A stretch of 64,000 bases of DNA from Pyropia yezoensis (Eukaryota > Rhodophyta > Bangiophyceae > Bangiales > Bangiaceae). The position numbers were made by a program, and so were the translations under genes. The stretch is taken from the NCBI GenBank assembly GCA_009829735.1, contig CM020618.1, positions 20,569,346 to 20,633,345 of the forward strand, given 5' to 3'. Every line of letters begins with the position of its first letter. The stretch's first letter is position 1. The notes under the pieces were generated by a model that was not told the DNA's origin, ran no database searches, and was given only the letters and a program-made list of their open reading frames with translations. This document shows positions 27,536 to 61,339 of the stretch, piece after piece.

Positions 27536-27555
27536 CACCCCACGACGGTGTCCCA

Positions 27556-34225: not shown

Positions 34226-34324
34226 GTTGGCTGACGATCCGTATGACACGGTCCAAGACCACCGTTCCTCTGAGACAGAGGGCCCCCTACACCCGGGTGC
34301 ACCCGGAGGTAAAGCTTACCTCTG

Positions 34325-34342
34325 TCCCCTGCTGCTCCACCA
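34325..34342 (-). promoter_or_regulatory. Primer-binding site, copy 2
   Basis: Minus-strand TGGTGGAGCAGCAGGGGA, two bases inside the LTR end, identical to copies 1 and 3. Confidence 0.8.
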
Positions 34343-34344
34343 AA

Positions 34345-34813: not shown

Positions 34814-34835
34814 GCCCCCATCCCCCACCGCCCTC

Positions 34836-38600: not shown

Positions 38601-40160
38601 GACGAGGTGGGGAGAATACCTCCCAGGCCCTGCACAAGCTGAGGAGTTTGCTCTGTCCGCCTGCCAACCCTGGCAAGCGGGTCAGCCCCCTGGTCGAGCA
38701 ACTTCTTCATCGCATCGACGAATTACTGGGCGGGTCTGCTGCGCCAGAAGATACTGGGGCGGGTGCTGCGCCTGCCGCTGGGGCGGGGGCTGCGCGAGAC
38801 GACGCTGGGGCGGGAGCTGCGCCAGAAGACGCCGGGGCGGAGGCTGCGCCTGCCGCTGGGGGGGGGGCTGCACCTGCCGATGAGGTAGGTGCCCGGTCAG
38901 GTGCCGACAAAGATGGGCGGCCTCCCCCAGCGCCCGATGCGACCATGGCGATTCCGTCCGGTGACCCCGACGTCATTACCATAGGCGACGACACAGGGGA
39001 CGAAGTCCAGTTTGTGTGCTACCTGCCCGCAGTGGCGGTCCCAGACAATGTTTTGGCTGAGCAGGCCGTTTCCCCTGCGTATGATGCGGAACTCCCTAGC
39101 ATCATTTTGTTCGTTGACGACGACGATGACTGGCATGAAGCAGAGAGCGATGGCGTGACTGTCTTCAGTGTGGCCCGGGTGGTCCGGGCCGGCCAACTGG
39201 TCGGGCAGCGGCGGACGTCCTCCGCCACTGGGGCGGCCGCCCATGTGGCAGTAGCTCGGAGTGCTGCCACCTCTGTCGCGACTGTACCTGCCACCTCCTC
39301 CGCGACGGCAGCCGTCCCAAACGAGCCCTCTACGCCCGAGGTTGCTGTTACCGCTGCTGCTCCAGATGCTCCATCGGCGGCGGGTATAGCCACAGGCGCG
39401 GTGAATGCTGTGGCTGTGGGTGCTTGTGGCGTTGGTGGGGCTCCTGCGGGCACGGCGGCCGTGGCCGACGCGGGTGTTGGCGGAGGTGCACCCGCTGAAC
39501 CTGGTACTGCTGCAGCAATTGACACCGCGGGGGTGGCTGCTGTGGGCACGGCAGTGGCTCGGGGGGAGGAGCCCTCTCTTGCTTTGCCTGCAGTTGCAGA
39601 CGCGGGTGCGGCTGTTGTTGGAGGTGGGACTGCCGGCGTAGGAGGCCCTTGTATCGGTTCCCCGGGTGGTGGGGGGGACGCGGCTCCCACTGCTGCACCT
39701 CTGCCCGCGGCGGCGGCGGCGGCGGCGGGGGGTGACGCCAGCCAGGCCAGTCCTCCCACACTGTGTGGCGCGGATGGTGATCGGGTGGCGCTCGGTCAGT
39801 TGACGCTCTGTACGTCCGAGTCTGGGTGGAAGGGTGTCCCAACCCACCTGCGCCCGTCCCCATTGTACGCAAGAGGACCTGGGGGCCACTGGCAGGCCAT
39901 CGTTGTCGCCACCTTGTGCCAGCTCGCCGCCTGCGGTACAGAGGCGGTGGCGCAGTCTATCGAAGGCAGCAATAAGTGCCATGGCGGCGGCGACGGACGC
40001 AGTGGGCGCGTGACCACATCGTCATTGTGCTCACGCTTTGGCGTGGCTCGCATCGACGCGCCCATGACCCTCTCGTCGCCGCAGGGGGGGGGCTCCATCT
40101 TGGACGACCCGCGGGCGTGTCGCATGTGCAACGTGCTCGTGCGTATGCCCGCCCCTCGGG
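35672..40160 (+). CDS. Large helicase protein, first exon (N-terminal region)
   Basis: An open frame reaches back into repeat B, but I take ATG 35672 (MAVTPPTAEPVGG), the first after the repeat. Residues ~1-240 are a degenerate Ala/Val/Pro/Ser repeat. From MADEPVVEMQ (36410) on, about 850 residues have normal, largely helical composition (e.g. LVHECDALFARVG, VWRTKTTIHRLAVRAAAV) but match no domain I recognise. An Ala/Gly/Asp minisatellite at 38741-38882 and a second Ala-rich stretch follow. The end (RACRMCNVLVRMP) is still coding-like, then the frame degenerates. A GT-AG intron of 113 bp (40161-40273) joins it in phase to the helicase core. Probably one Sen1/UPF1-like gene of ~2200 codons. 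Confidence 0.6.
38741..38882 (+). repeat. Coding minisatellite, 24-27-bp units
   Basis: Six imperfect units encoding GAGAAPEDT / GAGAAPAA-type 8-9-residue repeats inside the helicase gene. Units keep the frame. Confidence 0.7.
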
Positions 40161-40273
40161 GTGGTCCCCCCGGTGGGGGCGGCCGCCCTACCGGGGGATC
40201 CGCTGGGCGCCACCACCGCCGCCACAAGGACCGCGGGGAGAGTGTCAAGTGGACCCCACAGACGCCACCCCAG
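40161..40273 (+). other. Predicted intron, 113 bp, GT...AG
   Basis: Starts GTGGTCCCCC and ends CACCCCAG. Upstream reading frame 2 is coding-like to MPAPRG and downstream frame 1 is coding-like from DLCAFWAPEPVGS. Removal of 113 bp (2 mod 3) joins these frames exactly. A frameshift in the C/G runs of the same interval is the alternative. Confidence 0.5.
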
Positions 40274-42354
40274 GTGATTTGTGTGCCTTTTGGGCACCGG
40301 AACCCGTCGGCTCGGTGTGCAGCACCCCCTTGGACGCGGTGTTTATTGGCCGCTGCGAGGGCAAGGAGGGGCAACCCGACGGGGGGGTTCGTGGCCCACC
40401 GCCCGCGGGGGCAGGCCAGTGGTCGGTGGACAAGACGCCTGGCCCGGGGCTGGACGAGGGGGACGATGACGCCGGCACGGCGCGCCACGGTGGCGCATCC
40501 GGTCCCCCCCGGCGGTGGTGGTTCGCGGTGCGTCGTTCAGACGTGCAGCGGATGCTCCATCGCCGGACGGCAAATGTGGTCGTCACCCTGTCTCATAGTG
40601 TCCTGTCGGACAGCCGCGAGTTTGGCGGCCCCGGCCACTGGGACATTTTTCCGCCAGTCATGCGGAGGGCGCTCGCCACCCACGCAACGCCTCCGCACGG
40701 GGGACAGCAGGTGGTACCTGTACCTGCACCGGGGCCTCCCCCCCTGCAGAGTGCTCCTTCACGCTACGCCCACCTGGACGTGTTCCAGTGGCGCGCAGTC
40801 GATTGCATGCGCCGGGAGCTGTTGTCGGACGAGTGTGACGTGCAGCTGGTGACGGGCCCCCCCGGGACGGGCAAGACACGCGCCATTGTCCCCATGGTGG
40901 ACATGGTACTTGGGACCCTGCCAGACGGGCGGGTGCTGCTGACGTCGCGCACCAACACGGCGTGCGACGAGCTGTTGGACGCAGTGCGCGAGTTGTTCTG
41001 TCCGTCGGGGGCTGCCAGTCGACACGGCGTCGCGGAACCCGATGCCGTGACGCTCCTCCGTGTGGGTGAACCCCCTCCGGATGGCCACCGTGCCAGGACA
41101 ACGCACATTGATGCCGTGGTGGACGAGCGCCTTCCTGTCGCCTACCCGTCCGTGACAGCCGCGGTGGAACGCGCACGGGCACGGGTGGCCGATGTGGGCG
41201 GTCGTGTGGATCGTTCCCGCGCCCAGGGTGCAGAGCCGGGCGCAGGTGGGTCACACAACCTCCTCGAGGAATGTGCCGATGCGGAGCAAGCCCTGGAGGC
41301 TGCCTTGCGTCGCCAGCAGCGTGCGGAACGGGAGCTCTGCAAGCGGATCGTGGGCGGCGCGTCCGTCATTGTCACAACGACGTCAACGTCGACGGGGGGG
41401 CTCGTGGGGGGTCAAGGCTTTGACGCCATTATCATTGACGAGGGTGCGGCAACAAGCGTCCCTGCGTCTGTCGCTGCCATTGTTCGCGCCAAGCGAGCAG
41501 GGCGTGCGGGTGGCTCGTCAGACGAAGAAGAGGACGGCCATCCGGCAGAGCGGACCAAGTGCATTGTCCTTGTTGGCGACAATGCCCAGCTGAGGCCGAG
41601 CGCCTGTATGGAGTAGAGAGGCGAGACACGGCCGATGGCATCCAGCGTTCTTGAGCGGCTCGCCAGGTTTCAGTCCGCTTGCGTCACCCTCTCCGCGCAG
41701 TACCGCATGCGGCCGCTGTTATGGTCCCTCCTCCGACAAGTCTTTTACCGGCACATTGGCATATGGTCGGACGGGCGCGGGCCCAAGACCCGCCTTGAGG
41801 AGGGGTTTGGAACACCCGCGTGGCTAAACCATCCGGGACAGCCTATTCGCTTTGGAGGGCTTCAAATGACAGACACTTCCCGCCTGCCGGCCGACGATCG
41901 CGCGCACAATTCGGGTTCCACCACCCCCAACAACAAGAGCCTGATAAACGTTGCAGAGCTTCGGTTTGACGAGATGGCTCTTACGGATCTACTGCTGGCG
42001 TGGGCGGCGTCCAGCGGGGCTACCGAGCTGAAGGTGATGCTCATCACCCCCTACACTGCGCAGCGGAACAAGCTGAATGAAGTGGTGCAGTCGGTGAGGG
42101 ACAGCAGGCGGCTGCCCCGCAGACCATGTGCGGACGTCAGGGTGTCCACCGTGGATGGCTGCCAAGGCGCTTCTGTGGACTATGTCATACTCTCCCTCGT
42201 GCGGTCAGAGCCTGGGGCGCCACCCGGCGGGAACACCGACTTTTTGTCCGACGAGCGGCGCGTGAACGTCATGATGTCGCGGGCACAGAGCCATCTCCAC
42301 GTCATTGGAGACATGGACTACCTTTCAAGCTCTGGAGGTGTGTGGAAGAGCTGA
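40274..42354 (+). pseudogene. SF1 helicase core (Sen1/UPF1-like), one in-frame TAG
   Basis: All core motifs of UPF1-like superfamily-1 helicases appear in order in one frame: a Q-like segment (DVFQWRAVDCMRREL), Walker A GPPGTGKT (40855-40878), motif Ia (LTSRTNTACDELLDAV), Walker B IIIDEGA (41428-41448), motif III GDNAQLRP (41575-41598), motif IV QYRMRP (41698-41715), motif V VDGCQG (42151-42168) and motif VI RRVNVMMSRAQ (42256-42288). Such enzymes unwind RNA or RNA-DNA using ATP. The frame is stopped by a single TAG at 41614-41616 between motifs III and IV and continues in the same frame after it (SSVLERLARF), as in related helicases. It is either a nonsense mutation, readthrough, or a very short GT-AG intron (41613-41666, 54 bp, in frame). 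Without readthrough or splicing the product lacks motifs IV-VI. Confidence 0.8.
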
Positions 42355-42727: not shown

Positions 42728-43297
42728 ATGGCGGGCTCATCGCGTCGCCCTTCGTCCGACGGTGAGCGCACGGGGTCATCACTGCCCTTTTCCAACAGAA
42801 GAGGTCCTTCCGGGCCATCGGTATGGATTTGGGGCGCTCCAAGAGCACCATCGCCTACGCAGCTATGGGCCACCCGCACGGAGTCCGCCCGCGCCAGGGT
42901 GGACAAGCGCGGTCGCCCCAAGGTTTTGACGGACCGTGAGCTCTGTAACCTCAAGCGGGCGCTTGACACCGACGGGTTTTCCTCTGTGGCATCCCTGAAG
43001 GAGATGGTGAATAACACGCGCACCCAAGCGACCGGAGGGCCCGAGAAGGGACCATTGTCAGTCTCCGCTGTCCGCAGGGCCGTCCGGAGCTTGGGTTTTC
43101 ACTCCAGGGTAGCGGCCAAGAATCCCTTCCTGTCTGCCAAGAACGTCGCCAAGCGCCTTGTGTGGGCCACAGCGCACCGCGGCTGGATGGCTCTGCGCGA
43201 CCGGTGGGACGCCATTCCTGCTTCGTTTTTCAAGTCTCTCGTGGAGTCGATGCCCTGTCGTGAGGGAGGTGTGATAGCCGCTGCGCAGCGGATGTGA
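42728..43297 (+). pseudogene. Tc1/mariner transposase relic: DNA-binding part fused to the extreme C-terminus
   Basis: Starts MAGSSRRPSSDGER, typical of Tc1-like proteins. The first helix-turn-helix is readable only in the +1-shifted frame between ~42768 and ~42890 (KRSFRAIGMDLGRSKSTIAY), so two compensating indels are implied. Back in the main frame comes the GRPKVLTDREL linker and second HTH (LSVSAVRRAVRSLGFHSRVA, then KRLVWATAHRGW). Instead of the catalytic DDE domain, the sequence jumps straight to the family's C-terminal signature (RWDAIPASFFKSLVESMP). The whole catalytic core, about 170-200 residues, is deleted. Could at most bind DNA. Terminal inverted repeats were not identified. Confidence 0.8.
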
Positions 43298-45746: not shown

Positions 45747-48700
45747 ATGAACGAAGAAGACGACGGCAGCGACCAAGACATTGGCGTCGACGGGCTGGAC
45801 GGCGACACCACCTCAGACGAGGAGTGGGACCCGGCACAAGAGCAGGCGTACGTTCAAGACGCACGCAACGTGGTGACGCTCAAGCGGGCGGTGCTCGCCG
45901 CCAACCTGAGCCGCCTGCAGGGCGTGTCTGCACCCCCGGGGGGCGACGCGGCCTCGTCGGCCGACTGGTCTGCCGCCGTCGCGCAGTTGCAGCAGGCGGC
46001 CAAGGATGAGGAGGCGGCGGGCCCCCTCGACGGCGCCGGCGAAGACCTCGTCGCGGCCATCACAGGCACAGCACAGGCGGTCAGCGTGTACTGTGGTGGT
46101 CGGGCGGCGGCAAGCGAGGCCGAGGTGGAGCTCGCCGCACGCGCCAAGACGGCCGCTGGGCTGATTGGCGTGGCCGCCGCGGGCTTGCCCCGGCGCGAGG
46201 CTGCCACTGACGCACCGCCCGCCCGCAAGGGGCGGACGCAAAAGTGTAGCGGATGTGGCCAGCCCGGGCACAAGGTCACCTCTTGCAAGGCCCCGGCTGG
46301 TGCAGGGCCGGCGGCCGCTGCCGCCGCCGCCGCCGTCGTCCCGGCGGCGGCTGCGGCGGCCGCGTCCAAGTGTCGCGACTGCCTGGGAGGGGGCCACAGC
46401 AGCGGGGACGCCGCCTGCCCGGTGCAGCGGCACTGTGGGGGCGTGCCAGCGGCCTACGACCGCGGCGTCGACCCCGACTGCAAGGACCCGCCTCAGAGCA
46501 CTGGACGGCAGACGCGGGCGTGTACCGCGCCGGTGGGCGTCCTCGCGAGGGCGGTGTTTGAGGACGACAAGGACGACGCCGACACGCCCGCGGCGGTGGA
46601 GACGGCGCTGCAAGCAGAGCTGGAGGACCTCTCTGGGGCGGCTACCAAGCTCCGCTTCCTCATGCCCCGCGTCCTCGACGTCGCATTGCGGCGCCTGGTG
46701 TCGACCGTCGCGGACGCAGCCGCCGACGACGCCGACTGGACGGGGGCCGTGCCCGCGAACTGGGCGCCCGTCTGGCTGTGGTTGGCCTACGCCTGCGGCT
46801 GCGAAGGTGTGTCTGGCAGTCCCCTGCAGGCGGGCACCGTGTGTGCGGGGTGTGGCAAGGGGCGGGCCAACACGCGGATGGCGCGCGCCCGCTCTGTGGT
46901 GACGACAAGCCACCCGCTGCTGGCGGAGGCGCTCTCCTACGCCCTCACGCAGGTGATGGCCGTCACGGCAGCTGCGTGCGACCGGTATCTTCCGGCGAGC
47001 AACAACACGGAACGATGGGAGCCCGTCGCCAACATCGTGGCCACCCACGCCGGGCGGTGTGTGGACGCGGCGTGTCGCAAGCTGGGCGCCAAGGCGGCCA
47101 AGGACGCGCTGGCCACCTGCCTTGCTGCCACGGCTGCTCCAGCGGGCGGCTCTGCCTGGGACACGGAGCGGCGGCTGACGCGGTGGGCGGCCGCGCGCAT
47201 CCGAGCGGGTACCGCGGACAAGGCAGCGCCGGGCCGGCGGGGCCTCGACGGCGTCCCCCAGCACCTGGTCCAGGCGCTGGCGCAACGGGTGGCCGTCATG
47301 CGGGCGGCCATGCCACCCTCTGTGGCGGGCCTCTTTCCAGCAACGCCTATGAAGAAGCGCCGCTGGTGGGCGTACGTGCCGTATCTCCTTCACGTCCTGA
47401 ATTTGGGTGTGGAGAGCCCGTACGCCCTCATCCCTGGCGCCCGAGCGGTGCTTAACGTTCACGGCACGCTGGTGCCGGACAGGATGCTCGCCCTGTTGGG
47501 GGCAGTTTCGGCTGCCACTGGCGTGGGGGTGCGTGGCCACCCCAGTCCTCGGGCGTGGCCAGAGCTGCGAACGGGCGGTGCAGCGGTGCTGGCCGCCATG
47601 GCTGGTGTCGGTGGCCGCGCCAACCGGGCATCCTCCCAGCTGTCTACTGACGGCGTGGCGGTGACGTTTTTTCTGTCTCGACCCGACACGGCCGCAGAGG
47701 CCGAGGCGCGGGCGGTGGCCTGGGCCAAGAAGCTGGACGGCGGTGGACGTGCACGGGACCGCAGCGTCCAAGGCTTTGCGTCCCGGGTGGGGGTACTGAC
47801 GCAGCTCGAGCGGGCTGGCTTGCCGTTGGCGCGCGTCCGGTGGCTCCAGATGGTCGGCGGAGACCCGGGACGGTCTGACGTACTGTCGGCAGCACCGGGT
47901 GAGCGCGTGGCGACGGCAGACCTCCCCGCCCGCCCCGTTGTAGCCGCGATGCGCGCCGCGTGGTCCCGCCACATGGGCTTGGACGCGCTCAACCGGGCGG
48001 CCGTGGCGCTCCTGCGTGGGGCGGGCGTCCAAGACGGGGTGGCGGCAGCCGCAACCACGCCCGGGGGCCACCTACCAAGGGGGTCTAGGAAGCGGGCGGC
48101 GGCGGGCGCCCCGGCTGCAGGGGCGGGAGCAGGGGGTGGCCGTTCCAAGCGACAAGCGCGGCGGTCGTCACCCGAGGGCAGCGACGATGATGCGGCGGCG
48201 GTGGCTCCGGCGGCGGCGGGTGGGACGATGCCCCCCAAGGCAAAGACCTACCAGACGGCGAGCCCCGGCGGTGGCCACGGGCGCGTGCGGCGTGGGCCGC
48301 AGGCGTCCATCCGACGGGCCCGCCGCACCCAGCTCGCCACCTCGGTGCGGCGTGTGCTGCGTCGCACGCGCCTGTCCCGGTGGACTGTGCCCCGTCACGA
48401 GGCGAAAAAGGTGGCACTGTGGCTGGTGGAGCCCACTGCCGCGGCGGGCAACAGTGCCAGCAGCACCACCCCAGACGCGCCGCTGCAGGACCGGGTGGAC
48501 GCGCTGCCCCGGCGCAAGGGGTGTCGTCGACTGGCACCCGTCCCCGGCCTTCGCTACAGCCTGAGTGCCGCACACTTTCGCGAGGCCAGCGGCGGTAACT
48601 TTCTGGCCCGTGCGTGGAAGCAGTGGCGGGCACTCAGCGGTACAGGGGCGGGACCGGTGGCGGCGGCGGTGGCGGGACTGGTGGCGGCGGCGGGTGACGG

Positions 48701-49613
48701 AGGCGGCGTCGCTGGCCACCTACCACCCGTCGACTTGGCAGCAGCACACGGCACGATGCGTACCGGCGACGACGGCAAGCACCTGCAGGCAACGCTCGAG
48801 TGGGCCGCCCGTCGCGACACGGCCGCGTACGGCCAGCGATTTGGCGCCCAAGCCACGCGACACCTGCAGGTGGCGCGCGTGCGCAAGGCCATCCAACGCG
48901 GCCGCTTTGCTGCCTCGGTGGCGCGGGACCTGACCGGCGGCCTCCTTGGCCAGGTCCGTGGCGGCGGCGCGGTCGTCGTGGCCATGGGCACCGCGCGCGT
49001 GCGCGGGGGGGACGCCTGGCTCCGCCGCCACCTCCGACGGCTGTGCTGGTTTGTCAACCAGGACGAGTTCAACACCAGCCAGGCGTGCTCCGAGTGTCAC
49101 GACAAGATGGTGCTCATTTACTCCACGGGCAACTCCCCCCCCAAGATTCCAAGAGAGCTGTATGGGCCGCCGGCCGGCCCTCTGCCGTCGACACGGCGTG
49201 TGCGGATGGCGGCTGGGTCGCGTCGGGGGCGACCAAAGCGGGCCCTCCCCTCTGCTACCCACGTGACGCGCCGAGGGCCAGACCCCGACGCCTACCGGGC
49301 GGCCGTCCGAGCCACTGCCCGTGCTGCTGCTGTGGCGCGGCGCGCGGCCGCGCTGGCCGTCTGTGCCGTCGAGGACCGCGCCGTCTATGCCGACCCGAGG
49401 CGGCTGAGCGAGTGGGCGGCCAAGGGCTGCTACACGTGCTCTCTCGCGGCCCCACAAGGCCCCGGTCATGCAGCGCCACACCCGCCCGTGATTCGCAATC
49501 GGGACCTCGTTGCGGCCCGCAACATTGCGTGGGTGGCCGTTCGTCGTCTCACGGGTACCAACGTGTGGCCTTTCAAGCGCCCGTTAGGTATGAGGTGGGT
49601 GTGGCAGTATTGA
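45747..49613 (+). CDS. Fanzor (eukaryotic TnpB-like RNA-guided nuclease), C-terminus altered by LTR insertion
   Basis: Start at ATG 45747 (MNEEDDGSDQD); 1288 codons, uninterrupted. The N-terminal acidic region is followed by a retroviral-type zinc knuckle (CSGCGQPGHKVTSC, Cys167-Cys180), a second knuckle-like motif (CRDCLGGGHSSGDAAC) and a long helical region. The Fanzor/TnpB nuclease half shows TDGVAVTFF (634-642), RuvC-I GGDPGRSDV (Asp706), the QDEFNTSQACSECH block (Glu1107, first zinc pair Cys1114/Cys1117), second zinc pair Cys1228/Cys1231 after a ~110-residue insertion, and RuvC-III NRDLVAARNIA (Asp1253). The strand that carries the catalytic Glu in bacterial TnpB (VVVAMG) has none, so Glu1107 is the likely substitute, as described for Fanzors. 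Native sequence ends at RPLGMRW; the last residues and stop come from the LTR starting at 49600. Fanzors are guided by an RNA usually encoded at the element's 3' side, which here is displaced. Confidence 0.88.
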   Translation: MNEEDDGSDQDIGVDGLDGDTTSDEEWDPAQEQAYVQDARNVVTLKRAVLAANLSRLQGVSAPPGGDAASSADWSAAVAQLQQAAKDEEAAGPLDGAGEDLVAAITGTAQAVSVYCGGRAAASEAEVELAARAKTAAGLIGVAAAGLPRREAATDAPPARKGRTQKCSGCGQPGHKVTSCKAPAGAGPAAAAAAAAVVPAAAAAAASKCRDCLGGGHSSGDAACPVQRHCGGVPAAYDRGVDPDCKDPPQSTGRQTRACTAPVGVLARAVFEDDKDDADTPAAVETALQAELEDLSGAATKLRFLMPRVLDVALRRLVSTVADAAADDADWTGAVPANWAPVWLWLAYACGCEGVSGSPLQAGTVCAGCGKGRANTRMARARSVVTTSHPLLAEALSYALTQVMAVTAAACDRYLPASNNTERWEPVANIVATHAGRCVDAACRKLGAKAAKDALATCLAATAAPAGGSAWDTERRLTRWAAARIRAGTADKAAPGRRGLDGVPQHLVQALAQRVAVMRAAMPPSVAGLFPATPMKKRRWWAYVPYLLHVLNLGVESPYALIPGARAVLNVHGTLVPDRMLALLGAVSAATGVGVRGHPSPRAWPELRTGGAAVLAAMAGVGGRANRASSQLSTDGVAVTFFLSRPDTAAEAEARAVAWAKKLDGGGRARDRSVQGFASRVGVLTQLERAGLPLARVRWLQMVGGDPGRSDVLSAAPGERVATADLPARPVVAAMRAAWSRHMGLDALNRAAVALLRGAGVQDGVAAAATTPGGHLPRGSRKRAAAGAPAAGAGAGGGRSKRQARRSSPEGSDDDAAAVAPAAAGGTMPPKAKTYQTASPGGGHGRVRRGPQASIRRARRTQLATSVRRVLRRTRLSRWTVPRHEAKKVALWLVEPTAAAGNSASSTTPDAPLQDRVDALPRRKGCRRLAPVPGLRYSLSAAHFREASGGNFLARAWKQWRALSGTGAGPVAAAVAGLVAAAGDGGGVAGHLPPVDLAAAHGTMRTGDDGKHLQATLEWAARRDTAAYGQRFGAQATRHLQVARVRKAIQRGRFAASVARDLTGGLLGQVRGGGAVVVAMGTARVRGGDAWLRRHLRRLCWFVNQDEFNTSQACSECHDKMVLIYSTGNSPPKIPRELYGPPAGPLPSTRRVRMAAGSRRGRPKRALPSATHVTRRGPDPDAYRAAVRATARAAAVARRAAALAVCAVEDRAVYADPRRLSEWAAKGCYTCSLAAPQGPGHAAPHPPVIRNRDLVAARNIAWVAVRRLTGTNVWPFKRPLGMRWVWQY

Positions 49614-50068
49614 CCCCCAGGTAGGGGGGCAACACGTGCCATGCAAGGGGCGGCAGGCCACTAGCCTGATCCGTTCCTGCCCCTGCATTTGGGTCCATAT
49701 TCCCTAAGTTTGGGATAGTTAGCTTAGTAGTAAATCCAACTTGGATTTGAGGGTTTTCTGTATTTATCGTCTTGATTTTTCGTGTGGCCCGGTGGGCAGG
49801 TGCTGGGGTGGGAGATTCTGAGTGGCGAGATTCTGAGTGGACCCTGGGGGGATAAGGGGAGGGACAGCGGGGCTTGGCCCTGCGTCCCCGTCCCGACCAA
49901 GAAACTGTTGGACCACACACCATCCTCTTGTTTGTCCGTGGGGGGTTTGCCCCACAACAGGGACAGAGTGTGTGCGACTTGCACTTCTTCCGGTTCCCCC
50001 GACACGGGAGGCAGCCCTTGCACACCGCCCCAACTTGGGTGCCGTGTGTGCATGTGGTTTTTGCCACA
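49600..50068 (+). repeat. 5' LTR, copy 3 (469 bp)
   Basis: Begins TGTGGCAG and ends TTTTGCCACA, with 7-bp inverted ends. Differs from the 3' LTR at 63622 at about four positions in the 379 bp that can be compared, i.e. roughly 1 percent. Confidence 0.95.
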
Positions 50069-50070
50069 TT

Positions 50071-50088
50071 TGGTGGAGCAGCAGGGGA
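50071..50088 (+). promoter_or_regulatory. Primer-binding site, copy 3
   Basis: TGGTGGAGCAGCAGGGGA, separated by TT from the LTR end. The complementary tRNA 3' end would have discriminator A, acceptor strand CUGCUCC, T-stem strand CCCUG and T-loop ending UC, which is a well-formed tRNA geometry. The tRNA identity is not known to me. Confidence 0.8.
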
Positions 50089-50187
50089 CAGAGGTAAGCT
50101 TTACCTCCGGGTGCACCCGGGTGTAGGGGGCCCTCTGTCTCAGAGGAACGGTGGTCTTGGACCGTGTCATACGGATCGTCAGCCAAC

Positions 50188-52134
50188 ATGGCTAGCTCGG
50201 AGCCCCCGTCGTCCGGGGAGTACACGGGTGACGCACGTACTTCAGTGCCTTTGAATACTGGTGAGACACAGGTGGGTTTACCTGGGGTCGCAGAGGGACT
50301 AGAGGTCCCTCAAGCCAGCAGGACTGGAAGTGCGGGCGGGCAACAGGCCACCCCGACTCAGTCGGGAGTTCACTCGGGTGACACTTCTGATGTGGGTGGG
50401 CCGAAGTCTGGCCACCGTGTGGTATACTCAACGGGAACGTCCCAAGGGGTGAGGACTGTCCTCGCGGGTTCCACTCGGGTTGGAGCCAACTTTGGCTTGG
50501 AGCCGTCGCCAACTAGGCTTTCGGAGGACGGCGGACCTCCGTTGGTCGGCGATGGGCTCGCGCCCATGCCCCCGGTTGGGACCCCTGAGGAACGTGGTTA
50601 CCCCTCAGGTGGACTCCCAGAGGCGGACCGAGACTCAACTGGAGTCGTCAATCCACTCCTCGCGGAAACTGTCCGTCGGGAGGCGACCAATGTGTTGCGG
50701 CAGACTTTGCCGGACCTGGTGGTCACGATGACGAATACTATTCTGAATCAGATTGTGGCGAGTTTGCCAGATGGCCTCAATGTCCAAACCGGATTGGGGC
50801 TTTCGAGCCCGCAGGCACAGGGGGAATCCCCCCTTACGCCTATCTCTGGTCGCCCCGAACTGGGGGCGACACCTGTGACTCCCAACGAGGGAGCCACACC
50901 ATACTCGGTGGGGCGTACGCCCTTCATGGGGGAGTTCCCCCCGGAAACGCCGGCGGCTACACCAAGCGCGCCGCGCCGGACTACAGGCACTGAGGGTGAA
51001 CTTACCCCAGTGCCACAGCGGCTGTTCCCTCAACGTGAGGTGCCGCCAAAGATCCAGGTAGCCAACCCGGTCTACCAGAGGATCTTTGACTGTGAGACCT
51101 ACGCCCTCCACAACAAGTCGGTGGTGTATGGTCCTGACCAGGCCCGAGCCATGGGCCGTGCCAAGAAGAATGCACTTCATTCTTTTGGGCACAAAGCGGA
51201 GTGGGATGGAACCCCCCCCCTCCGTGTCTTTGAGTTCCTACGTCGTTTCACAAAAGCCTGTGACGACAATGCCATAAGTGAAGGCATGGCTTTTTACATG
51301 CTACAGGAGTTTACGAAGGGCGACCTGCGGACAGAACTTATGTCCGTCATGCCCAGCTCCTCAAGTGGAGGCGCTGGGGAGGTGACGTCCTATTTGGAGC
51401 TCGTCAACTGGTTGTTGAGAGCCATGGTTGATGAGGCAGCGTTGGCTTCTCAAGTCGAGGAGTTTACGCAAGCCCATCAGGAAGAGGCGGAGGACGAGTT
51501 GTCCTTTGCGGAGCGAGTCCGTAAGCTCAACAATCTTTGTGGGTTTCTTCATCCACAAGCTGTGGTGAAGAGTCGGTTTGTGGAGGGACTCCATTGGTCA
51601 GTCCGGATGGAGACCCGGGAGCATAACACTGCCCGGGCGACCCTGGCCGAGTTGGCTAGGTTCGCCTATCGCAGAGGCGAGGCCTACCGCAAGTTGCGGG
51701 AGGAACAACGCCAGGAGCGTCAGGCCGAGTTGGCCAAGGAACGGGAGGAGGCGCGCCAGGCCAGAGAGTTGAGAGAGGCACGCCGAATCCGCAAGGAGAG
51801 CGTGGTAGCTGCCGTGGGAACTTCCCAGGGTATCCCTTCGCCTTCCCCAGTTGGGAAGACATCTCCCGGAACAGACCATCGGTGTTGGAACTGCAACTCC
51901 GATGGACACTGGGCATATGATTGCCCCAAGTTGAGTAAACGCATCCAACAACTTGTTAGGAACGCGAGTAAAAAGTCGGCTACGAACGAAGTACGTTCAC
52001 GCCGCGAGGGTGGGTCTCGACCGGTCGTCGCGGTCGCCACACCCTCGGCGGAGGAGGCGGACACGTCGTCCTCGGACTCGTCGTCTTCCTCCCCGCCCTC
52101 AGATTCGGACGCGAAGTCGGCGGGAAACGAATGA
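50188..52134 (+). CDS. gag: Gag polyprotein, 648 aa (copy 3)
   Basis: ATG 50188 (MASSEPPSS). Same layout as the other copies: disordered N-terminal half, capsid-like helical middle, CCHC knuckle at residues 566-579, acidic Ser tail. Uninterrupted. The stop TGA at 52132-52134 overlaps the pol ATG at 52131-52133. Confidence 0.94.
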   Translation: MASSEPPSSGEYTGDARTSVPLNTGETQVGLPGVAEGLEVPQASRTGSAGGQQATPTQSGVHSGDTSDVGGPKSGHRVVYSTGTSQGVRTVLAGSTRVGANFGLEPSPTRLSEDGGPPLVGDGLAPMPPVGTPEERGYPSGGLPEADRDSTGVVNPLLAETVRREATNVLRQTLPDLVVTMTNTILNQIVASLPDGLNVQTGLGLSSPQAQGESPLTPISGRPELGATPVTPNEGATPYSVGRTPFMGEFPPETPAATPSAPRRTTGTEGELTPVPQRLFPQREVPPKIQVANPVYQRIFDCETYALHNKSVVYGPDQARAMGRAKKNALHSFGHKAEWDGTPPLRVFEFLRRFTKACDDNAISEGMAFYMLQEFTKGDLRTELMSVMPSSSSGGAGEVTSYLELVNWLLRAMVDEAALASQVEEFTQAHQEEAEDELSFAERVRKLNNLCGFLHPQAVVKSRFVEGLHWSVRMETREHNTARATLAELARFAYRRGEAYRKLREEQRQERQAELAKEREEARQARELREARRIRKESVVAAVGTSQGIPSPSPVGKTSPGTDHRCWNCNSDGHWAYDCPKLSKRIQQLVRNASKKSATNEVRSRREGGSRPVVAVATPSAEEADTSSSDSSSSSPPSDSDAKSAGNE

Positions 52135-55100
52135 CCGTTGGGGCTGGTCGTCCGAAGCTCACAACGGCAGCCTCGGCCAAGTGGGCCATAAGGACGAACC
52201 AACCGTGCCGGATACTGCGGCGACCTAAGGGAGTCCGCCCACCTCGGGTAGGACTCCCCAAGAACGTAAACCCACGTCGGGTCATCGCGGTGCTGACGGG
52301 TGAGAACTTCCAGGTGGCTGGACGGGTGCAACTTGCCCCCGGCCGCGCCTGTTGTGCCCGTATCGTACTTGATACCGGGTCAGGAGCCTCCTTGATACGC
52401 AAGTCGCTATTACCAAAGGAGGTGAAGCTCCAACGCTGGAGGTCCAAAGCTGACCATATGATTGACATCAATGGTGGGGTACTTCCCATCGTTGGTGCCG
52501 TGACCCTACCAACTAGGTAGGGGACCCATGAGGTCGACGTGACCTATGGTGTAGTTGAGAGTATATCGGTACCCCTGCTTCTGGGTACCCCTTATGTTGT
52601 TACACAAGTGCCTTTGATTTGTGGCCCTGAGTACTGGGTCAAGTTGATGAATGGGGAGACTATCCCCATCCTTGGTAAGGGAAAGTCTGTGGCTCCTGTG
52701 ACAGTCTCACAGTCGAAGCCTGTTTGCTCTGTGAGGGAAGGGTCTACTGCTACCCTGCGTCTAGCCCGTAAAGTCACGTTGCCCCCCAACTCGGTGGCGC
52801 ACGTTGACGTTGTAACTGATTATACGGGGAACGGGTTGGTGCACCCTCACCCCCGTCTTGCTCGCAAGCACCAAGTGCATGTTGCCCTTGGCACGATGGA
52901 CTCCAAAGCCGGAGTCCCGTGGAGGATCCAGGTGATGAACCTGAGTCCGACGCCCAAGTACTTCAAGTCGGGAGCCAAGTTCGGCTATATCGACCAACAT
53001 GAGGGACCGGTAGTAGCGGTCACCCTCAACGCGGGCGCAAGTAGCGACCCGAAGTCCGGAAAGGAGAAGCATCAAGCCAAGTCGGCCACCTCTCCTCGGC
53101 CCCATGTGAACATGGAGGGTGTTCCCCCCAGGTTGAGGGTTCAAGTTGAACGCCTCTTGGACCAATATCACAAGTTGTGGGATGGTCAATTGGGACTCAT
53201 GAGAGCTACCCAACACCGGATCGAGTTGAAGCCCGGTGCACCCCCTATACGCCAACAACCGTATAGGGGAGGACCTCGTTCAAGGGCCCTCGTTAAGGAG
53301 CAAGTTGCTCGCATGGAGGCCCTCGATGTGATCGAGGCCAGCAACGCCGAGTGGGCGAGTCCGGTGGTTATCGTCCCCAAAGTTGATGGGACCCCCCGGT
53401 TTTGTATCGACTACCGTAAGCTCAACGAGAGCACGGTGAAGGACAGTTATCCCCTACCTAGGATGGACGACTGTCTGGACTCTCTGGGGGAGGCAAACGT
53501 GTTCTCTACCCTGGATTGTAACGCGGGGTACTGGCAAATTCCCATTGCCCCGGAGGACAGTCATAAAACTACCTTTACCTGTCACTGTGGTACCTACCGG
53601 TGCAAGCGCCTACCGTTTGGTCTGTGTAACGCGCCGGCAAATTTCCAGCGCGCTATGGACATGATTCTGGCCGGAGTACGGTGGCAGATCTGTCTTGTGT
53701 ACCTAGACGATATCATTGTGTTCTCCCGAAGTCCGGAGGAACACATTGGCCATCTTGGCCAGGTGTTCAAGCTACTTGCTGACGCCGGTGTGTCACTGAA
53801 GGCGAGTAAGTGCCACCTCTTCACTCAAGAGGTGGAGTACTTGGGACATGTTGTCCGTCCGGGGCGTCTCAGTGTTAACGAGAAGAACTTGAGGGCCATT
53901 CGTAAGGCTCAGTACCCCCGGACCCAGACCCAGATGAGGAGCTTCCTCGGGATGTGTAACGTGTACCGACGTTTCACCAAGGGTTTCGCCAAGGTGGCGA
54001 AGCCGTTGAATGAGCTAGTGAGCTCAACGCTACCGAAGAACCTGCCTCCCCCAAGTCGGGTGGAGCAGGAATCCTTTGAGACTCTTCGGGACCTTCTGCT
54101 GAAGCCCCCTATCCTGGCAATGCCCAGGTTGGGAGGCCACTACATCCTGGATGTGGACGCTAACTACGACCAACTTGGTTGTGTGTTGCTTCAGCAGCAG
54201 CCGGACAAGGAGTACTTGCCGGTGGGATACTTCAGTAAGGGGCTGAACTCGGCCGAGAAGAACTACGGAGTCACCGAGTTGGAAGGACTCGCAGTGGTGT
54301 GGGCGGTGACGTCACTTCTTCACTACCTAGAGGGTGAGAAGTTCCTCATCCGCTGTGACCACCGCGCGTTGCAGTTCATCTTTAAGACGGACTGTACGAA
54401 CACTCGTCTCAATCGGTGGAGGGTGCGACTGGCACCCTTCAACTTTGACATTGAGTACCGACCTGGCAGGCAACATGCCCTTGCCGACGGCCTCTCTCGG
54501 GTACCTACCGAGGGGCTGGACACTAACCCAGTCGATGAGGACATCCCCATCGTGGGGGTAGTCACGCGCTCGGGTCAGGCGTTGAACCCCGAGGCGCCAG
54601 GGAACAAGAAGTACTTGCCCCTGTCCCTGGATGAGGTGGTGAAGGCCCAGGCCGAGGATCCCTTCTGCAAGTCGCAGAGGGATACATTGGATACGGTGGT
54701 TGAGACGCGTTTCTTTCTGGGAGACGATGGCCTCCTCATGAGGAGGGGGGTATTCCAAGGGGCTGAACAACTTGTCGTCCCCGCATCCCTCAAGGACAGT
54801 ATCCTTGAGAGGGAGCACAACGCTCCCACGGGTGGACACCTGGGGTCTAGTAAACTGTACCAGACCCTGAGGACCAGGTACTACTGGCCGTCCATGGTGG
54901 TGGACATCTACAGTTGGGTGGCTGCCTGCACAAGTTGTGCACAGAACCGTCTGATGGAACGGCGGCCTAGTACGGCTATGTTATTGTTCCCGGCCAAGGA
55001 GCCCTTCGCCGCGTTGGCGATGGACATCCTTGGGCCACTCCCAGTGACCGAGGAGGGCAACCAGTACCTCCTGGTCATCTGTGACCGCTTCACGAAACTT

Positions 55101-56114
55101 ACGCGAGCGATCCCACTGGCAGAGATCACGGCCATGTCGGTCGTGTCAGCCTTCCTAGATCACTGGGTTGCCGCGTATGGCATCCCGGATAGTACACTAT
55201 CGGACAATGGACCGCAATTTGCGTCTGTACTGTTTCAGGGAGTGCTGGATATGTTGGGGGTTAAGGCAAACTATGCCACCCCCTACCACCCACAAACTAA
55301 TGGGCAGGTGGAGCGCTTCAACAAAACTATTGTTAGGCAGCTACGCCACTATGTGAGTGAGCACGTGAAGACGTGGGACCAATACATTTCTATTCTTACT
55401 ACCGCCTACAATTCGCAGGTTCACTCATCTACCGGGGAAGTACCCCTCGCTTTTGTGACCCCCCGTCGTGTGCGGTCTATTGCCGTGAGGCGGTCGCTCC
55501 CAACTAGGGAGGATGGTGGCAGTACGCCTACTCCTTCTGAGAGTAAGGCGGAGTTCGCTGCTAGGCTTGAAAACCTCATCCCAAAAGTCAGGGCTGAGAT
55601 GGACAAAGCACAAAAGCGCTACAAGCGTACCTTTGACAAAAAGGTGCGCAATGCTAAGCACGTCCCCGAGCAGGGTGACTGGGTGCTGGTACACTCGCAC
55701 ACCCCAACTGGGGGTAAGCTGGTATTCCAGACGAAGGGGCCGTACCAGGTCCTTCGTACTGATGGGCGGCGCTTCACCATCGAAAGTGACGATGGGGTCC
55801 GCACAGTGAACGGACATGACGTGGTCAAAGTTGCACCACCGCCTGCAGGCGACCCAGCTTGGGCGCGTGCTTTGGAAGCGTGGCGCCTCCCCTCACTGCC
55901 TGCGGCCAAACAGGGCCCGCAGGAGTACGTGTTCGATAAGTTCATCGACCACGGATGGGATGAAGACACTGACCGCCTCATGTTGAGGGTGCGTTGGATT
56001 GGCTACAAAGCCAAGGACTGTACGTGGGAGTATGTGGAGGACCTTCCCGCTGAGAAGGTCCGGGCGTACTGTGCCCGGAATGAGATAGACCCTAACAGCC
56101 CACCCTCAACGTGA
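52131..56114 (+). pseudogene. pol: Pol polyprotein, copy 3, one nonsense codon
   Basis: Full-length Pol reading frame with all domains listed for copy 2, but TAG at 52518-52520 replaces TTG (Leu) just after the protease region, within LPTRL. Everything downstream (RT with YLDD at 524-527, RNase H, integrase Asp965/Asp1025/Glu1061, chromodomain ~1264-1320) remains open in the same frame. The same TAG occurs in copy 4. Without readthrough no RT or integrase would be made. Confidence 0.94.
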
Positions 56115-56225
56115 GGGAAGACCGAGCAACAGTGCCAAGAGAGTGCTTCAAGTCGAAGTGGTACGCAGAGTGGCTTTTAACTACAGCCCTAACCCTCACA
56201 CTCTCACAACAAAGGCAGCTGCCAA

Positions 56226-56844
56226 CTAGGCACGCATGCTAGACTCTCCCACTCCACGGCCCTCGCCCTCACGTGGAGGCGAGCGGCGAGACCCACGCCG
56301 ATAACGGTCTCCACTCGTTGGAAGGGGCGGCGGCTCCAAGTCGGAACCGTCGCGCCCTTCACGGTCGCGCAAGTGGCGCCGACCGTGGCTACTCTTCTGC
56401 CTGGTCTTGCGCGCAAGTTTGCGACGCAGACGCTGGACAGACTCCGTCTCCGACGGGGTAGAGGACTCCGAAACGGAGTAAGACAACTCGTCTTCCGACA
56501 CGGAGGGAGAGCGCCGCGAGTGTCGGCGACGACGGCGAGGAGGCGAGTATGCCCGGCTCGCGCGACGTTTGCCACGCCCAAGTGGGGCTGGCTGGGGCAT
56601 AATAGCCCCAATGCGAGCCAACTCGGCTGTCATAAACTCCGCCACCGACTCGCAACTCGCGGTCGCCACTGCAGTACGAACGCGCTCCTCAAGTTGAGGA
56701 GTCTCGGAGCTTTGGAGTGTTGCGGTCGACGCGGCCCAACCAGGAAATGGTGCGCACCAACGTGGTGATCATCATCTCTGAGGTTAGAGGCGTGGGCGGT
56801 AACACCAACTTGGGGTATATCGTCAGGAGGGTGGCCCCCAAGTT
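56226..56844 (-). pseudogene. Antisense accessory gene, 3' part, with frameshift near gap (copy 3)
   Basis: Minus-strand C-terminal third of the antisense protein, ending at the stop 56226-56228. An extra C near 56737 (GCGGCCCAACC against GCGGCCAACC in copy 4) shifts the frame. The indel is ~100 bp from the contig end and may be an error. Confidence 0.8.
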
Positions 56845-57344
56845 NNNNNNNNNNNNNNNNNNNNNNNNNNNNNNNNNNNNNNNNNNNNNNNNNNNNNNNN
56901 NNNNNNNNNNNNNNNNNNNNNNNNNNNNNNNNNNNNNNNNNNNNNNNNNNNNNNNNNNNNNNNNNNNNNNNNNNNNNNNNNNNNNNNNNNNNNNNNNNNN
57001 NNNNNNNNNNNNNNNNNNNNNNNNNNNNNNNNNNNNNNNNNNNNNNNNNNNNNNNNNNNNNNNNNNNNNNNNNNNNNNNNNNNNNNNNNNNNNNNNNNNN
57101 NNNNNNNNNNNNNNNNNNNNNNNNNNNNNNNNNNNNNNNNNNNNNNNNNNNNNNNNNNNNNNNNNNNNNNNNNNNNNNNNNNNNNNNNNNNNNNNNNNNN
57201 NNNNNNNNNNNNNNNNNNNNNNNNNNNNNNNNNNNNNNNNNNNNNNNNNNNNNNNNNNNNNNNNNNNNNNNNNNNNNNNNNNNNNNNNNNNNNNNNNNNN
57301 NNNNNNNNNNNNNNNNNNNNNNNNNNNNNNNNNNNNNNNNNNNN
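56845..57344. other. Assembly gap, exactly 500 N
   Basis: Second 500-N gap. Sequence after it repeats sequence from 52231 onward, not the continuation of copy 3. Confidence 0.99.
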
Positions 57345-60300
57345 GGGAGTCCCCCCACCTCGGGTAGGACTCCCCAAGAACGTAAACCCACGTCGGGTCA
57401 TCGCGGTGCTGACGGGTGAGAACTTCCAGGTGGCTGGACGGGTGCAACTTGCCCCCGGCCGCGCCTGTTGTGCCCGTATCGTACTTGATACCGGGTCAGG
57501 AGCCCTCCTTGATACGCAAGTCGCTATTACCAAAGGAGGTGAAGCTCCAACGCTGGAGGTCCAAAGCTGACCATATGATTGACATCAATGGTGGGTACTT
57601 CCATCGTTGGTGCCGTGACCCTACCAACTAGGTAGGGGACCCATGAGGTCGACGTGACCTATGGTGTAGTTGAGAGTATATCGGTACCCCTGCTCTGGGT
57701 ACCCCTTATGTTGTTACACAAGTGCCTTTGATTTGTGCCCTGAGTACTGGGTCAAGTTGATGAATGGGGAGACTATCCCCATCCTTGGTAAGGGAAAGTC
57801 TGTGGCTCCTGTGACAGTCTCACAGTCGAAGCCTGTTTGCTCTGTGAGGGAAGGGTCTACTGCTACCCTGCGTCTAGCCCGTAAAGTCACGTTGCCCCCC
57901 AACTCGGTGGCGCACGTTGACGTTGTAACTGATTATACGGGGAACGGGTTGGTGCACCCTCACCCCCGTCTTGCTCGCAAGCACCAAGTGCATGTTGCCC
58001 TTGGCACGATGGACTCCAAAAGCCGGAGTCCCGTGGAGGATCCAGGTGATGAACCTGAGTCCGACGCCCAAGTACTTCAAGTCGGGAGCCAAGTTCGGCC
58101 TATATCGACCACATGAGGGACCGGTAGTAGCGGTCACCCTCAACGCGGGCGCAAGTAGCGACCCGAAGTCCGGAAAGGAGAAGCATCAAGCCAAGTCGGC
58201 CACCTCTCCTCGGCCCCATGTGAACATGGAGGGTGTTCCCCCCAGGTTGAGGGTTCAAGTTGAACGCCTCTTGGACCAATATCACAAGTTGTGGGATGGT
58301 CAATTGGGGACTCATGAGAGCTACCCAACACCGGATCGAGTTGAAGCCCGGTGCACCCCCTATACGCCAACAACCGTATAGGGGAGGACCTCGTTCAAGG
58401 GCCCTCGTTAAGGAGCAAGTTGCTCGCATGGAGGCCCTCGATGTGATCGAGGCCAGCAACGCCGAGTGGGCGAGTCCGGTGGTTATCGTCCCCAAAGTTG
58501 ATGGGACCCCCGGTTTTGTATCGACTACCGTAAGCTCAACGAGAGCACGGTGAAGGACAGTTATCCCCTACCTAGGATGGACGACTGTCTGGACTCTCTG
58601 GGGGAGGCAAACGTGTTCTCTACCCTGGATTGTAACGCGGGGTACTGGCAAATTCCCATTGCCCCGGAGGACAGTCATAAAACTACCTTTACCTGTCACT
58701 GTGGTACCTACCGGTGCAAGCGCCTACCGTTTGGTCTGTGTAACGCGCCGGCAAATTTCCAGCGCGCTATGGACATGATTCTGGCCGGAGTACGGTGGCA
58801 GATCTGTCTTGTGTACCTAGACGATATCATTGTGTTCTCCCGAAGTCCGGAGGAACACATTGGCCATCTTGGCCAGGTGTTCAAGCTACTTGCTGACGCC
58901 GGTGTGTCACTGAAGGCGAGTAAGTGCCACCTCTTCACTCAAGAGGTGGAGTACTTGGGACATGTTGTCCGTCCGGGGCGTCTCAGTGTTAACGAGAAGA
59001 ACTTGAGGGCCATTCGTAAGGCTCAGTACCCCCGGACCCAGACCCAGATGAGGAGCTTCCTCGGGATGTGTAACGTGTACCGACGTTTCACCAAGGGTTT
59101 CGCCAAGGTGGCGAAGCCGTTGAATGAGCTAGTGAGCTCAACGCTACCGAAGAACCTGCCTCCCCCAAGTCGGGTGGAGCAGGAATCCTTTGAGACTCTT
59201 CGGGACCTTCTGCTGAAGCCCCCTATCCTGGCAATGCCCAGGTTGGGAGGCCACTACATCCTGGATGTGGACGCTAACTACGACCAACTTGGTTGTGTGT
59301 TGCTTCAGCAGCAGCCGGACAAGGAGTACTTGCCGGTGGGATACTTCAGTAAGGGGCTGAACTCGGCCGAGAAGAACTACGGAGTCACCGAGTTGGAAGG
59401 ACTCGCAGTGGTGTGGGCGGTGACGTCACTTCTTCACTACCTAGAGGGTGAGAAGTTCCTCATCCGCTGTGACCACCGCGCGTTGCAGTTCATCTTTAAG
59501 ACGGACTGTACGAACACTCGTCTCAATCGGTGGAGGGTGCGACTGGCACCCTTCAACTTTGACATTGAGTACCGACCTGGCAGGCAACATGCCCTTGCCG
59601 ACGGCCTCTCTCGGGTACCTACCGAGGGGCTGGACACTAACCCAGTCGATGAGGACATCCCCATCGTGGGGGTAGTCACGCGCTCGGGTCAGGCGTTGAA
59701 CCCCGAGGCGCCAGGGAACAAGAAGTACTTGCCCCTGTCCCTGGATGAGGTGGTGAAGGCCCAGGCCGAGGATCCCTTCTGCAAGTCGCAGAGGGATACA
59801 TTGGATACGGTGGTTGAGACGCGTTTCTTTCTGGGAGACGATGGCCTCCTCATGAGGAGGGGGGTATTCCAAGGGGCTGAACAACTTGTCGTCCCCGCAT
59901 CCCTCAAGGACAGTATCCTTGAGAGGGAGCACAACGCTCCCACGGGTGGACACCTGGGGTCTAGTAAACTGTACCAGACCCTGAGGACCAGGTACTACTG
60001 GCCGTCCATGGTGGTGGACATCTACAGTTGGGTGGCTGCCTGCACAAGTTGTGCACAGAACCGTCTGATGGAACGGCGGCCTAGTACGGCTATGTTATTG
60101 TTCCCGGCCAAGGAGCCCTTCGCCGCGTTGGCGATGGACATCCTTGGGCCACTCCCAGTGACCGAGGAGGGCAACCAGTACCTCCTGGTCATCTGTGACC
60201 GCTTCACGAAACTTACGCGAGCGATCCCACTGGCAGAGATCACGGCCATGTCGGTCGTGTCAGCCTTCCTAGATCACTGGGTTGCCGCGTATGGCATCCC

Positions 60301-61228
60301 GGATAGTACACTATCGGACAATGGACCGCAATTTGCGTCTGTACTGTTTCAGGGAGTGCTGGATATGTTGGGGGTTAAGGCAAACTATGCCACCCCCTAC
60401 CACCCACAAACTAATGGGCAGGTGGAGCGCTTCAACAAAACTATTGTTAGGCAGCTACGCCACTATGTGAGTGAGCACGTGAAGACGTGGGACCAATACA
60501 TTTCTATTCTTACTACCGCCTACAATTCGCAGGTTCACTCATCTACCGGGGAAGTACCCCTCGCTTTTGTGACCCCCCGTCGTGTGCGGTCTATTGCCGT
60601 GAGGCGGTCGCTCCCAACTAGGGAGGATGGTGGCAGTACGCCTACTCCTTCTGAGAGTAAGGCGGAGTTCGCTGCTAGGCTTGAAAACCTCATCCCAAAA
60701 GTCAGGGCTGAGATGGACAAAGCACAAAAGCGCTACAAGCGTACCTTTGACAAAAAGGTGCGCAATGCTAAGCACGTCCCCGAGCAGGGTGACTGGGTGC
60801 TGGTACACTCGCACACCCCAACTGGGGGTAAGCTGGTATTCCAGACGAAGGGGCCGTACCAGGTCCTTCGTACTGATGGGCGGCGCTTCACCATCGAAAG
60901 TGACGATGGGGTCCGCACAGTGAACGGACATGACGTGGTCAAAGTTGCACCACCGCCTGCAGGCGACCCAGCTTGGGCGCGTGCTTTGGAAGCGTGGCGC
61001 CTCCCCTCACTGCCTGCGGCCAAACAGGGCCCGCAGGAGTACGTGTTCGATAAGTTCATCGACCACGGATGGGATGAAGACACTGACCGCCTCATGTTGA
61101 GGGTGCGTTGGATTGGCTACAAAGCCAAGGACTGTACGTGGGAGTATGTGGAGGACCTTCCCGCTGAGAAGGTCCGGGCGTACTGTGCCCGGAATGAGAT
61201 AGACCCTAACAGCCCACCCTCAACGTGA
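57345..61228 (+). pseudogene. pol: Pol, partial, frameshifted at its start (copy 4)
   Basis: Encodes Pol from residue ~34 to the natural stop. The first 1.2 kb is split over frames by indels (e.g. near 57506, 57596, 57693, 57737, 58019, 58100, 58308 and 58510) and also carries the TAG seen in copy 3. From 58550 to 61228 the frame is open (892 codons) and contains RT from the LPRMDD region on, RNase H, integrase and chromodomain, identical in translation to copy 3. Confidence 0.92.
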
Positions 61229-61339
61229 GGGAAGACCGAGCAACAGTGCCAAGAGAGTGCTTCAAGTCGAAGTGGTACGCAGAGTGGCTTTTAACTACAG
61301 CCCTAACCCTCACACTCTCACAACAAAGGCAGCTGCCAA

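Follow-up and report, generated by a model that had tools for sequence, protein, structure and literature searches.

A putative enlarged and divergent Fanzor1-type gene with N-terminal zinc knuckles, split by a Ty3/gypsy retrotransposon, in the red alga Pyropia yezoensis

We have analyzed a stretch of 64,000 nucleotides from the genome of P. yezoensis (assembly GCA_009829735.1, contig CM020618.1, positions 20,569,346 to 20,633,345 of the forward strand), here called the window, which carries a Fanzor1-like open reading frame (ORF) interrupted by a long terminal repeat (LTR) retrotransposon. Fanzor1 proteins are eukaryotic nucleases that cut DNA under the guidance of RNA. The ORF is open on the plus strand from 45747 to 49613 and encodes 1288 aa (window protein P0001); an alternative GTG start at 45588 would give a version of 1341 aa. 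The Fanzor1-like coding sequence, which has the relatives P0002 and P0003, covers 45747–49599 and holds residues 1–1284 complete, and the formal ORF reaches 49613 through LTR sequence. In its N-terminal part it has a CCHC knuckle of the pattern CX2CX4HX4C (knuckle 1, residues 167–180, 46245–46286), a CCHC-like knuckle of the pattern CX2CX4HX6C (knuckle 2, residues 209–224, 46371–46418) and a third conserved Cys cluster, CXC-x13-CX2C (residues 350–369, 46794–46853). These are followed by TDG, a Fanzor1 WED motif (residues 634–636, 47646–47654, opening TDGVAVTFF), and by DPG of RuvC-I (D706-P707-G708 of DPGRS, 47862–47870). A low-complexity basic stretch, placed by eye at about residues 735–925 (47949–48521) with boundaries that have no test support, contains 63 Ala or Gly among its 191 residues, and by eye it also accounts for most of the surplus length from RuvC-I to the relocated catalytic glutamate of Fanzors (Ealt). 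The strand VVVAMG at residue 1076 has no Glu, and QDEFNTSQACSECH at residue 1105 contains Glu1107, which corresponds to Ealt and stands with TS and the first zinc-ribbon pair, C1114 and C1117, at 49065–49097. The second Cys pair, C1228 and C1231 in CYTC (49428–49439), is separated from C1117 by 110 residues, and NRD of RuvC-III begins at residue 1251 and includes Asp1253 (49497–49505).

A preliminary description, made from the sequence alone, had placed TDG, DPG, Glu1107, both Cys pairs, NRD and Asp1253 at these residues, and had reported a VVVAMG strand lacking Glu, knuckles at 167–180 and about 210, and about 110 residues between the zinc-binding pairs. The translated ORF agrees with it on all of these points, to which our analysis added the interruption by an LTR element, membership of a multicopy family, a surplus of residues from RuvC-I to Ealt, and the third Cys cluster. 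When P0001 was shuffled 20000 times, the ordered set TDG..DPG..E-x6-CxxC..NRDxxAxxN never appeared (0/20000). Knuckle 1 arose by chance in 5 of the 20000 shuffles, knuckle 2 in 1 and the third cluster in 20; E-x6-CxxC alone arose in 253 and is less telling.

Comparison of the window with itself showed that 49592–49978 recurs at 63614–64000. These repeats belong to the two LTRs of one element, the 5′ LTR at 49600–50068 and the 3′ LTR starting at 63622 and running past the window end at 64000. In the flank beyond the window (L001), which we used to complete the second LTR, it ends at L001:190. Both LTRs are 469 bp long, starting with TGTGGCA and ending with TGCCACA, and are 99.1% identical, with 4 mismatches. 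The region they enclose encodes Gag, which has a zinc knuckle, as well as reverse transcriptase, RNase H, integrase and a chromodomain, so that the plus-strand element is a Ty3/gypsy (chromodomain) LTR retrotransposon, which covers 49600–64000 in the window and extends to window-equivalent position 64090. It is flanked by a 5-bp target-site duplication with one mismatch, GTGGG at 49595–49599 and GGGGG at L001:191–195. Right after the 3′ LTR, L001:192–521 is open for 110 codons before a stop at 522–524, and from its Trp onward this stretch encodes the last 108 residues of the gene. The tail of the paralog P0010, which reads through the insertion site unbroken, has the identical residue at 97 of these positions. 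The stretch also matches residues 1212–1324 of P0003 in tblastn without the low-complexity filter (E 3e-6). Filtered tblastn at E 1e-6 did not list it, and the tail is assigned by its identity with P0010. When the element and one flank copy are removed, the site reads M-R-W-A-W-T-T-K, compared with MRWSWTTK in P0003 and MRWAWTAK in P0010. Considering the matching LTRs, the gene tail after the 3′ LTR and the near-perfect target-site duplication, we conclude that a 14.5-kb Ty3/gypsy element split the Fanzor1-like gene at 49600 and that the tail of the gene resumes beyond the window. The gene had first been taken to run to 49613; that natural end is ruled out, as the residues beyond W1284 and the stop are LTR letters from 49600 onward. 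In the split copy the final 108 residues are missing and the catalytic residues are kept. This copy probably no longer works as a unit and is probably broken, because it has lost the C-terminal tail and 14.5 kb now separate it from its 3′ region, the source of guide RNAs in Fanzors.

Relatives were sought among 5.8 billion proteins, with only the roughly 8000 candidates sharing most words with each query being scored. The search with P0001 found P0002 and P0003, and the search with P0003 found the same two only. A core profile of two sequences, which admits shorter proteins, added 14 relatives: ten P. yezoensis proteins with separate locus tags and four from short contigs. Together with P0002, there are at least 11 annotated relatives in P. 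yezoensis, located on three long contigs and 81–94% identical to P0001, none being identical to it; one is annotated as 'hypothetical protein I4F81_002529 [Pyropia yezoensis]'. The family count, drawn from annotated proteins, is a lower bound, and the length limit of the profile search favoured short relatives. P0003, of 1347 aa, is 62% identical to P0001 along nearly the whole ORF and has the catalytic motifs and the knuckles. The P0007 copy, which has a low locus-tag number, was not matched in the first 200 kb of contig C1, the contig of the window (tblastn with the low-complexity filter on, E 1e-6), and no viral relative of the family was confirmed among 117 stretches.

Conservation was counted only over alignment rows with a letter at the column. 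D706 is kept in 11/11 aligned relatives, the Pro of DPG in 9/11, its Gly in 10/11 and the Asp of TDG in 8/11. Both C1114 and C1117 are kept in 6/6, C1206 in 5/6 and C1228 in 4/5, the exception at the last two being P0006, whose tail is unrelated by eye. E1107 is kept in five of six relatives, with Lys in P0006; this count drops P0012 and P0013, the ends of which are misaligned there. D1253 is kept in 2/4, with Glu in P0011 and the unrelated tail in P0006. The second Cys pair at 1228/1231, which the preliminary description had listed among the zinc-binding pairs, is present in the window copy, but C1231 is kept in only two of five relatives and the pair is seen only in P. yezoensis copies; P0003 has Ala there and P0011 has Gly with a Cys one residue further, neither being a P. 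yezoensis copy.

For kinship, the published yardsticks were taken from excerpts of the Fanzor papers cited here, PMC10432273 also being among them. The two Fanzor fingerprints are DPG at RuvC-I and Ealt six residues before the zinc finger, and Fanzor1 also has the TDG motif (PMC10711439); P0001 has all three, with E1107 six residues before C1114. The Fanzor/TnpB motif D-X(125,275)-[TS][TS]-X-X-[C4]-X(5,50)-RD (Bao & Jurka 2013, PMC3627910) calls for four Cys between Ealt and RD; the window copy has four as a putative finger, but in pairs 110 residues apart and with C1231 kept in only two of five relatives. Between C1231 and R1252 there are 20 residues, inside the published X(5,50)-RD range. 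A motif scan of viral contigs gave eight loci: L008, L010 and six where the motif lies in short ORFs only. L010 has a full-length ORF without DPG and was not used. L008, a 671-aa ORF, is a clear Fanzor1 (SpuFz1 2.8e-34, PpFz1 4.5e-35, GtFz1 4.4e-23) and was used as a bridge; it is a compact gene at L008:1785–3800 on a 4-kb contig of the viral collection, with 25% identity to the piece of SpuFz1 used. Further scans, run with L008 by itself or with A5, found no locus other than L008.

With HHalign, a profile of the window family (six sequences, four used) was compared with L008 plus pieces of SpuFz1, PpFz1 and GtFz1. The top three local matches were collinear and fell on RuvC-II/TNB (P 1.2e-4), TDG-DPG (P 0.0018) and NRD (P 0.2). 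The best match scored 42.9, whereas none of 400 column shuffles exceeded 21.8 and a reversed control reached 16.3; the three matches summed to 96.6, the highest sum in the shuffles being 54.5; collinearity of the top three was also seen in 63 of the 400 shuffles. The C-terminal part compared with Fanzor1 was equalled by 1 of 150 shuffles. Also, the Pfam family TNB (PF07282) gave a weak match (E 0.0014, 19.2 bits) to residues 1101–1119 of P0001, exactly at Ealt and CxxC.

Several results weigh against a Fanzor1 assignment. Between D706 and T1110 there are 403 residues, outside the published range of 125 to 275, and the 19.2 bits for PF07282 fall below the curated cut-off of 26.3. With a threshold as loose as E 10, PF07282 still found nothing in P0003; at E 0.001 it found nothing in the whole P. 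yezoensis genome (107.5 Mb, 11 contigs), and NCBIfam has no match for P0001 or P0003. Sequence searches of solved structures with P0001, A1 and two short pieces found no Fanzor; the HIV (human immunodeficiency virus) nucleocapsid (E 4.3), cytochrome, glutathione S-transferase and RNase P seen there are chance matches and not evidence. Likewise, Pfam gave only insignificant matches on P0002 and P0003 (zf-CCHC_6 E 4.8, Trypco1 6.9, HTH_23 0.023). The HHalign probabilities of the three matches are low, at 54.8, 14.6 and 0.3% (25.3, 23.7 and 0.4% with a trimmed core), and a global alignment of the trimmed core with Fanzor1 gave nothing sensible (score 7.0). No kinship was detectable before TDG (59/150 shuffles as good), in the REC-equivalent region (91/120) or between RuvC-I and RuvC-II (17/150). 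By-eye alignments of YSLSAAHFRE and GTMRTGDDG with the REC2 of Fanzor1, and of 'LIPGARAVL' with the region before TDG, received no support from the profile test and were rejected. AlphaFold2 models were of low confidence, with a mean predicted local distance difference test (pLDDT) score of 31.3 with 3 sequences and 33.7 with 14. Some relatives have altered residues at the key positions, namely E to K in P0006, D to E in P0011, DTG without TDG in P0012 and P0013, TNG in P0007, and DPA in P0016. Finally, when element ends were sought round the gene, no inverted-repeat pair rose beyond shuffle level except G/C runs.

Because the other regions score at shuffle level, kinship to Fanzor1, as far as sequence can tell, is confined to the catalytic segments. 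The Fanzor type proposed in the preliminary description thus stands for these segments, whose profile match exceeds all 400 shuffles, and finds no detectable counterpart elsewhere; its proposed check against TnpB/Fanzor profiles was likewise divided, the Fanzor1 profile matching the catalytic segments while PF07282 stayed below its cut-off and NCBIfam gave nothing. We would place P0001 outside the standard members, as an enlarged and divergent variant of the Fanzor1 type, because its spacing departs from the published one and its Pfam score does not reach the cut-off.

Based on these results, we consider, with a probability of roughly 0.72, that 1284 codons of the ORF form the 5′ part of an enlarged, divergent Fanzor1-type gene, that this gene is one of a family with many copies in Pyropia and related sequences, which is presumably mobile, that intact members would be Fanzor1-like, and that the window copy was split by the LTR element. 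By analogy with Fanzor1, a guide (omega) RNA from the 3′ end of the element would most likely direct the putative RuvC site of intact members, with Asp706, Glu1107 and Asp1253, and this site would cut matching DNA, which may help the element to persist. The N-terminal zinc knuckles most likely add a putative binding of single-stranded RNA or DNA. In the window copy, insertion of the LTR retrotransposon near the C-terminus has split the gene.

The strongest alternative is that the gene comes from a Fanzor1 element of the ordinary kind, its N-terminal knuckles and its insertions being incidental and bringing no new function. Published Fanzor1s do vary in size, up to about 800 aa, with insertions in REC, RuvC and the zinc finger (ZF) (PMC10711439, excerpt), and PpFz1 has a RuvC insertion of about 100 residues although most Fanzor1s have 600–700 aa (PMC11423790, excerpt). 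In addition, the match of Pfam zf-CCHC to knuckle 1 lies below the curated cut-off, and the zf-CCHC search found no match at knuckle 2. However, the zinc ligands are unchanged in the relatives that cover them. In knuckle 1, C167 and C170 are kept in 4/4, H175 in 3/3 and C180 in 2/2, so that the knuckle is complete in two of two relatives and partial in two more gene models; each ligand site of knuckle 2 is kept in 2/2, and C350, C352, C366 and C369 of the third cluster in 3/3. P0003 keeps these ligands at an overall identity of only 62%. We regard this alternative as a real possibility that falls short of an even chance.

Somewhat less credible to us is that the family is derived from Fanzor1 and decayed, with most or all copies dead, and that its expansions, its knuckles and the width of its zinc-ribbon gap arose by drift, the genome being GC-rich. 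Of the annotated relatives in P. yezoensis, all ten besides P0002 are short (268–612 aa), but these lengths may be artefacts of gene models, and the search itself favoured short proteins. The catalytic or motif changes in P0006, P0007, P0011, P0012, P0013 and P0016 would fit decay, as would the Ala/Gly-rich residues 735–925 and the break of the window copy by the retrotransposon. On the other hand, P0003 aligns over nearly the whole ORF and retains the catalytic motifs and knuckles, and D706 and the C1114/C1117 pair are kept without exception in the relatives aligned there.

It is improbable that the gene is a domesticated host gene derived from Fanzor: the conservation of full length in P0003 and the failure to find element ends would suit it, while the eleven other annotated copies, 81–94% identical and spread over three long contigs, fit a mobile family better. 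A chance resemblance, in which an unrelated zinc-finger protein happens to carry Fanzor-like motifs, can be set aside as very improbable, considering that, despite the low overall similarity, a TNB match below cut-off in P0001 and absent in P0003, the lack of any PDB sequence match and the low HHalign probabilities, the ordered motif set occurred in 0/20000 shuffles and the collinear profile match exceeded all 400.

Going beyond the enlarged, divergent Fanzor1-type gene preferred here, the family could stand apart as a Fanzor1 subfamily of bangialean red algae, with proteins of double size in which the knuckles and the Cys cluster take over the handling of guide RNA (or target) from REC, and the nuclease lobe has a rebuilt zinc site of C1114, C1117, C1206 and C1228. 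We put this forward tentatively, as an idea that is more doubtful than not.

In the surroundings of the gene, a Tc1/mariner-like transposase remnant lies at 42728–43297 (+), 2.4 kb upstream of the Fanzor-like ORF (HTH_Tnp_Tc3_2, E 5.8e-9), and by eye lacks the catalytic middle. Fanzor1s are known from Mariner elements (PMC3627910, excerpt); no ends shared between this remnant and the Fanzor-like ORF were found. Further upstream, two ORFs at 39976–41616 and 41635–42354 (+) correspond to the two halves of a superfamily 1 (SF1) helicase (AAA_11 1.1e-21, AAA_12 2e-33) and adjoin an ORF of 1851 aa without a Pfam match. Within the LTR element itself, about 4.6 kb is duplicated in tandem, the two copies starting about 5.1 kb apart (52229–56844 again at 57345–61957, 99.7% identical). 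Further copies of the element, about 96–99% identical, occupy 1–10344 and 27553–34819 of the window and are also present, at the same level of identity, in six (L021, L024–L027 and L034) of the first 20 pieces of 10 kb of contig C1.

Red-algal Fanzor1s (Cyanidioschyzon merolae), insertions in RuvC and ZF, and broad variation in size were already known. Among the Fanzor and Rhodophyta literature examined, partly as excerpts, a red-algal Fanzor is described only in the 2013 paper (PMC3627910). No paper pairing Fanzor with Pyropia or with CCHC was found in the open-access literature that was searched. If intact members are active, they would be evidence that a Fanzor1 can reach double size by acquiring retroviral-type zinc knuckles, and the family would be a natural test of RNA-guided nucleases gaining RNA-handling parts. 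The window copy is also an example of a gene broken by a mobile element from a different family, and the insertion is datable from its LTRs. To our knowledge, Pyropia is a seaweed crop with little genome-editing tooling.

In comparison with known systems, CMe-1A of the red alga C. merolae is likewise a multicopy red-algal Fanzor1 family, but it is an element of about 3 kb with about 150 copies (Bao & Jurka 2013, PMC3627910, excerpt), compared here by description. The Gag knuckle of retroviruses and Ty3 has the same CX2CX4HX4C pattern, whereas the window knuckle sits in a Fanzor-like ORF; with the Gag knuckle of the adjacent retroelement it has, by eye, only the pattern in common. The FRI domain of PpFz1 also consists of extra residues inserted in the RuvC region, but it has about 100 aa, compared with 233–243 extra residues from RuvC-I to Ealt here (relative to L008 and SpuFz1), and its position differs, the extra residues of the window family by eye directly following the RuvC-I strand. 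The wide zinc-ribbon insertion, initially thought unusual, is indeed present, with 110 residues between the Cys pairs against 34 in SpuFz1 and 28–29 in L008, although ZF insertions as such have already been described in Fanzor1 (PMC10711439, excerpt). Similarly, the gap from Asp to [TS], 403 in P0001, is 160 in SpuFz1 and 170 in L008. Compared with Fanzor1 as a whole (SpuFz1, PpFz1, GtFz1 and L008), the window family has TDG, DPG, Ealt before CxxC and the NRD helix in the same order, SpuFz1 itself having DPN in place of DPG. On the other hand, at about 1290–1350 aa it is about twice the size of Fanzor1 and adds N-terminal knuckles and a Cys cluster.

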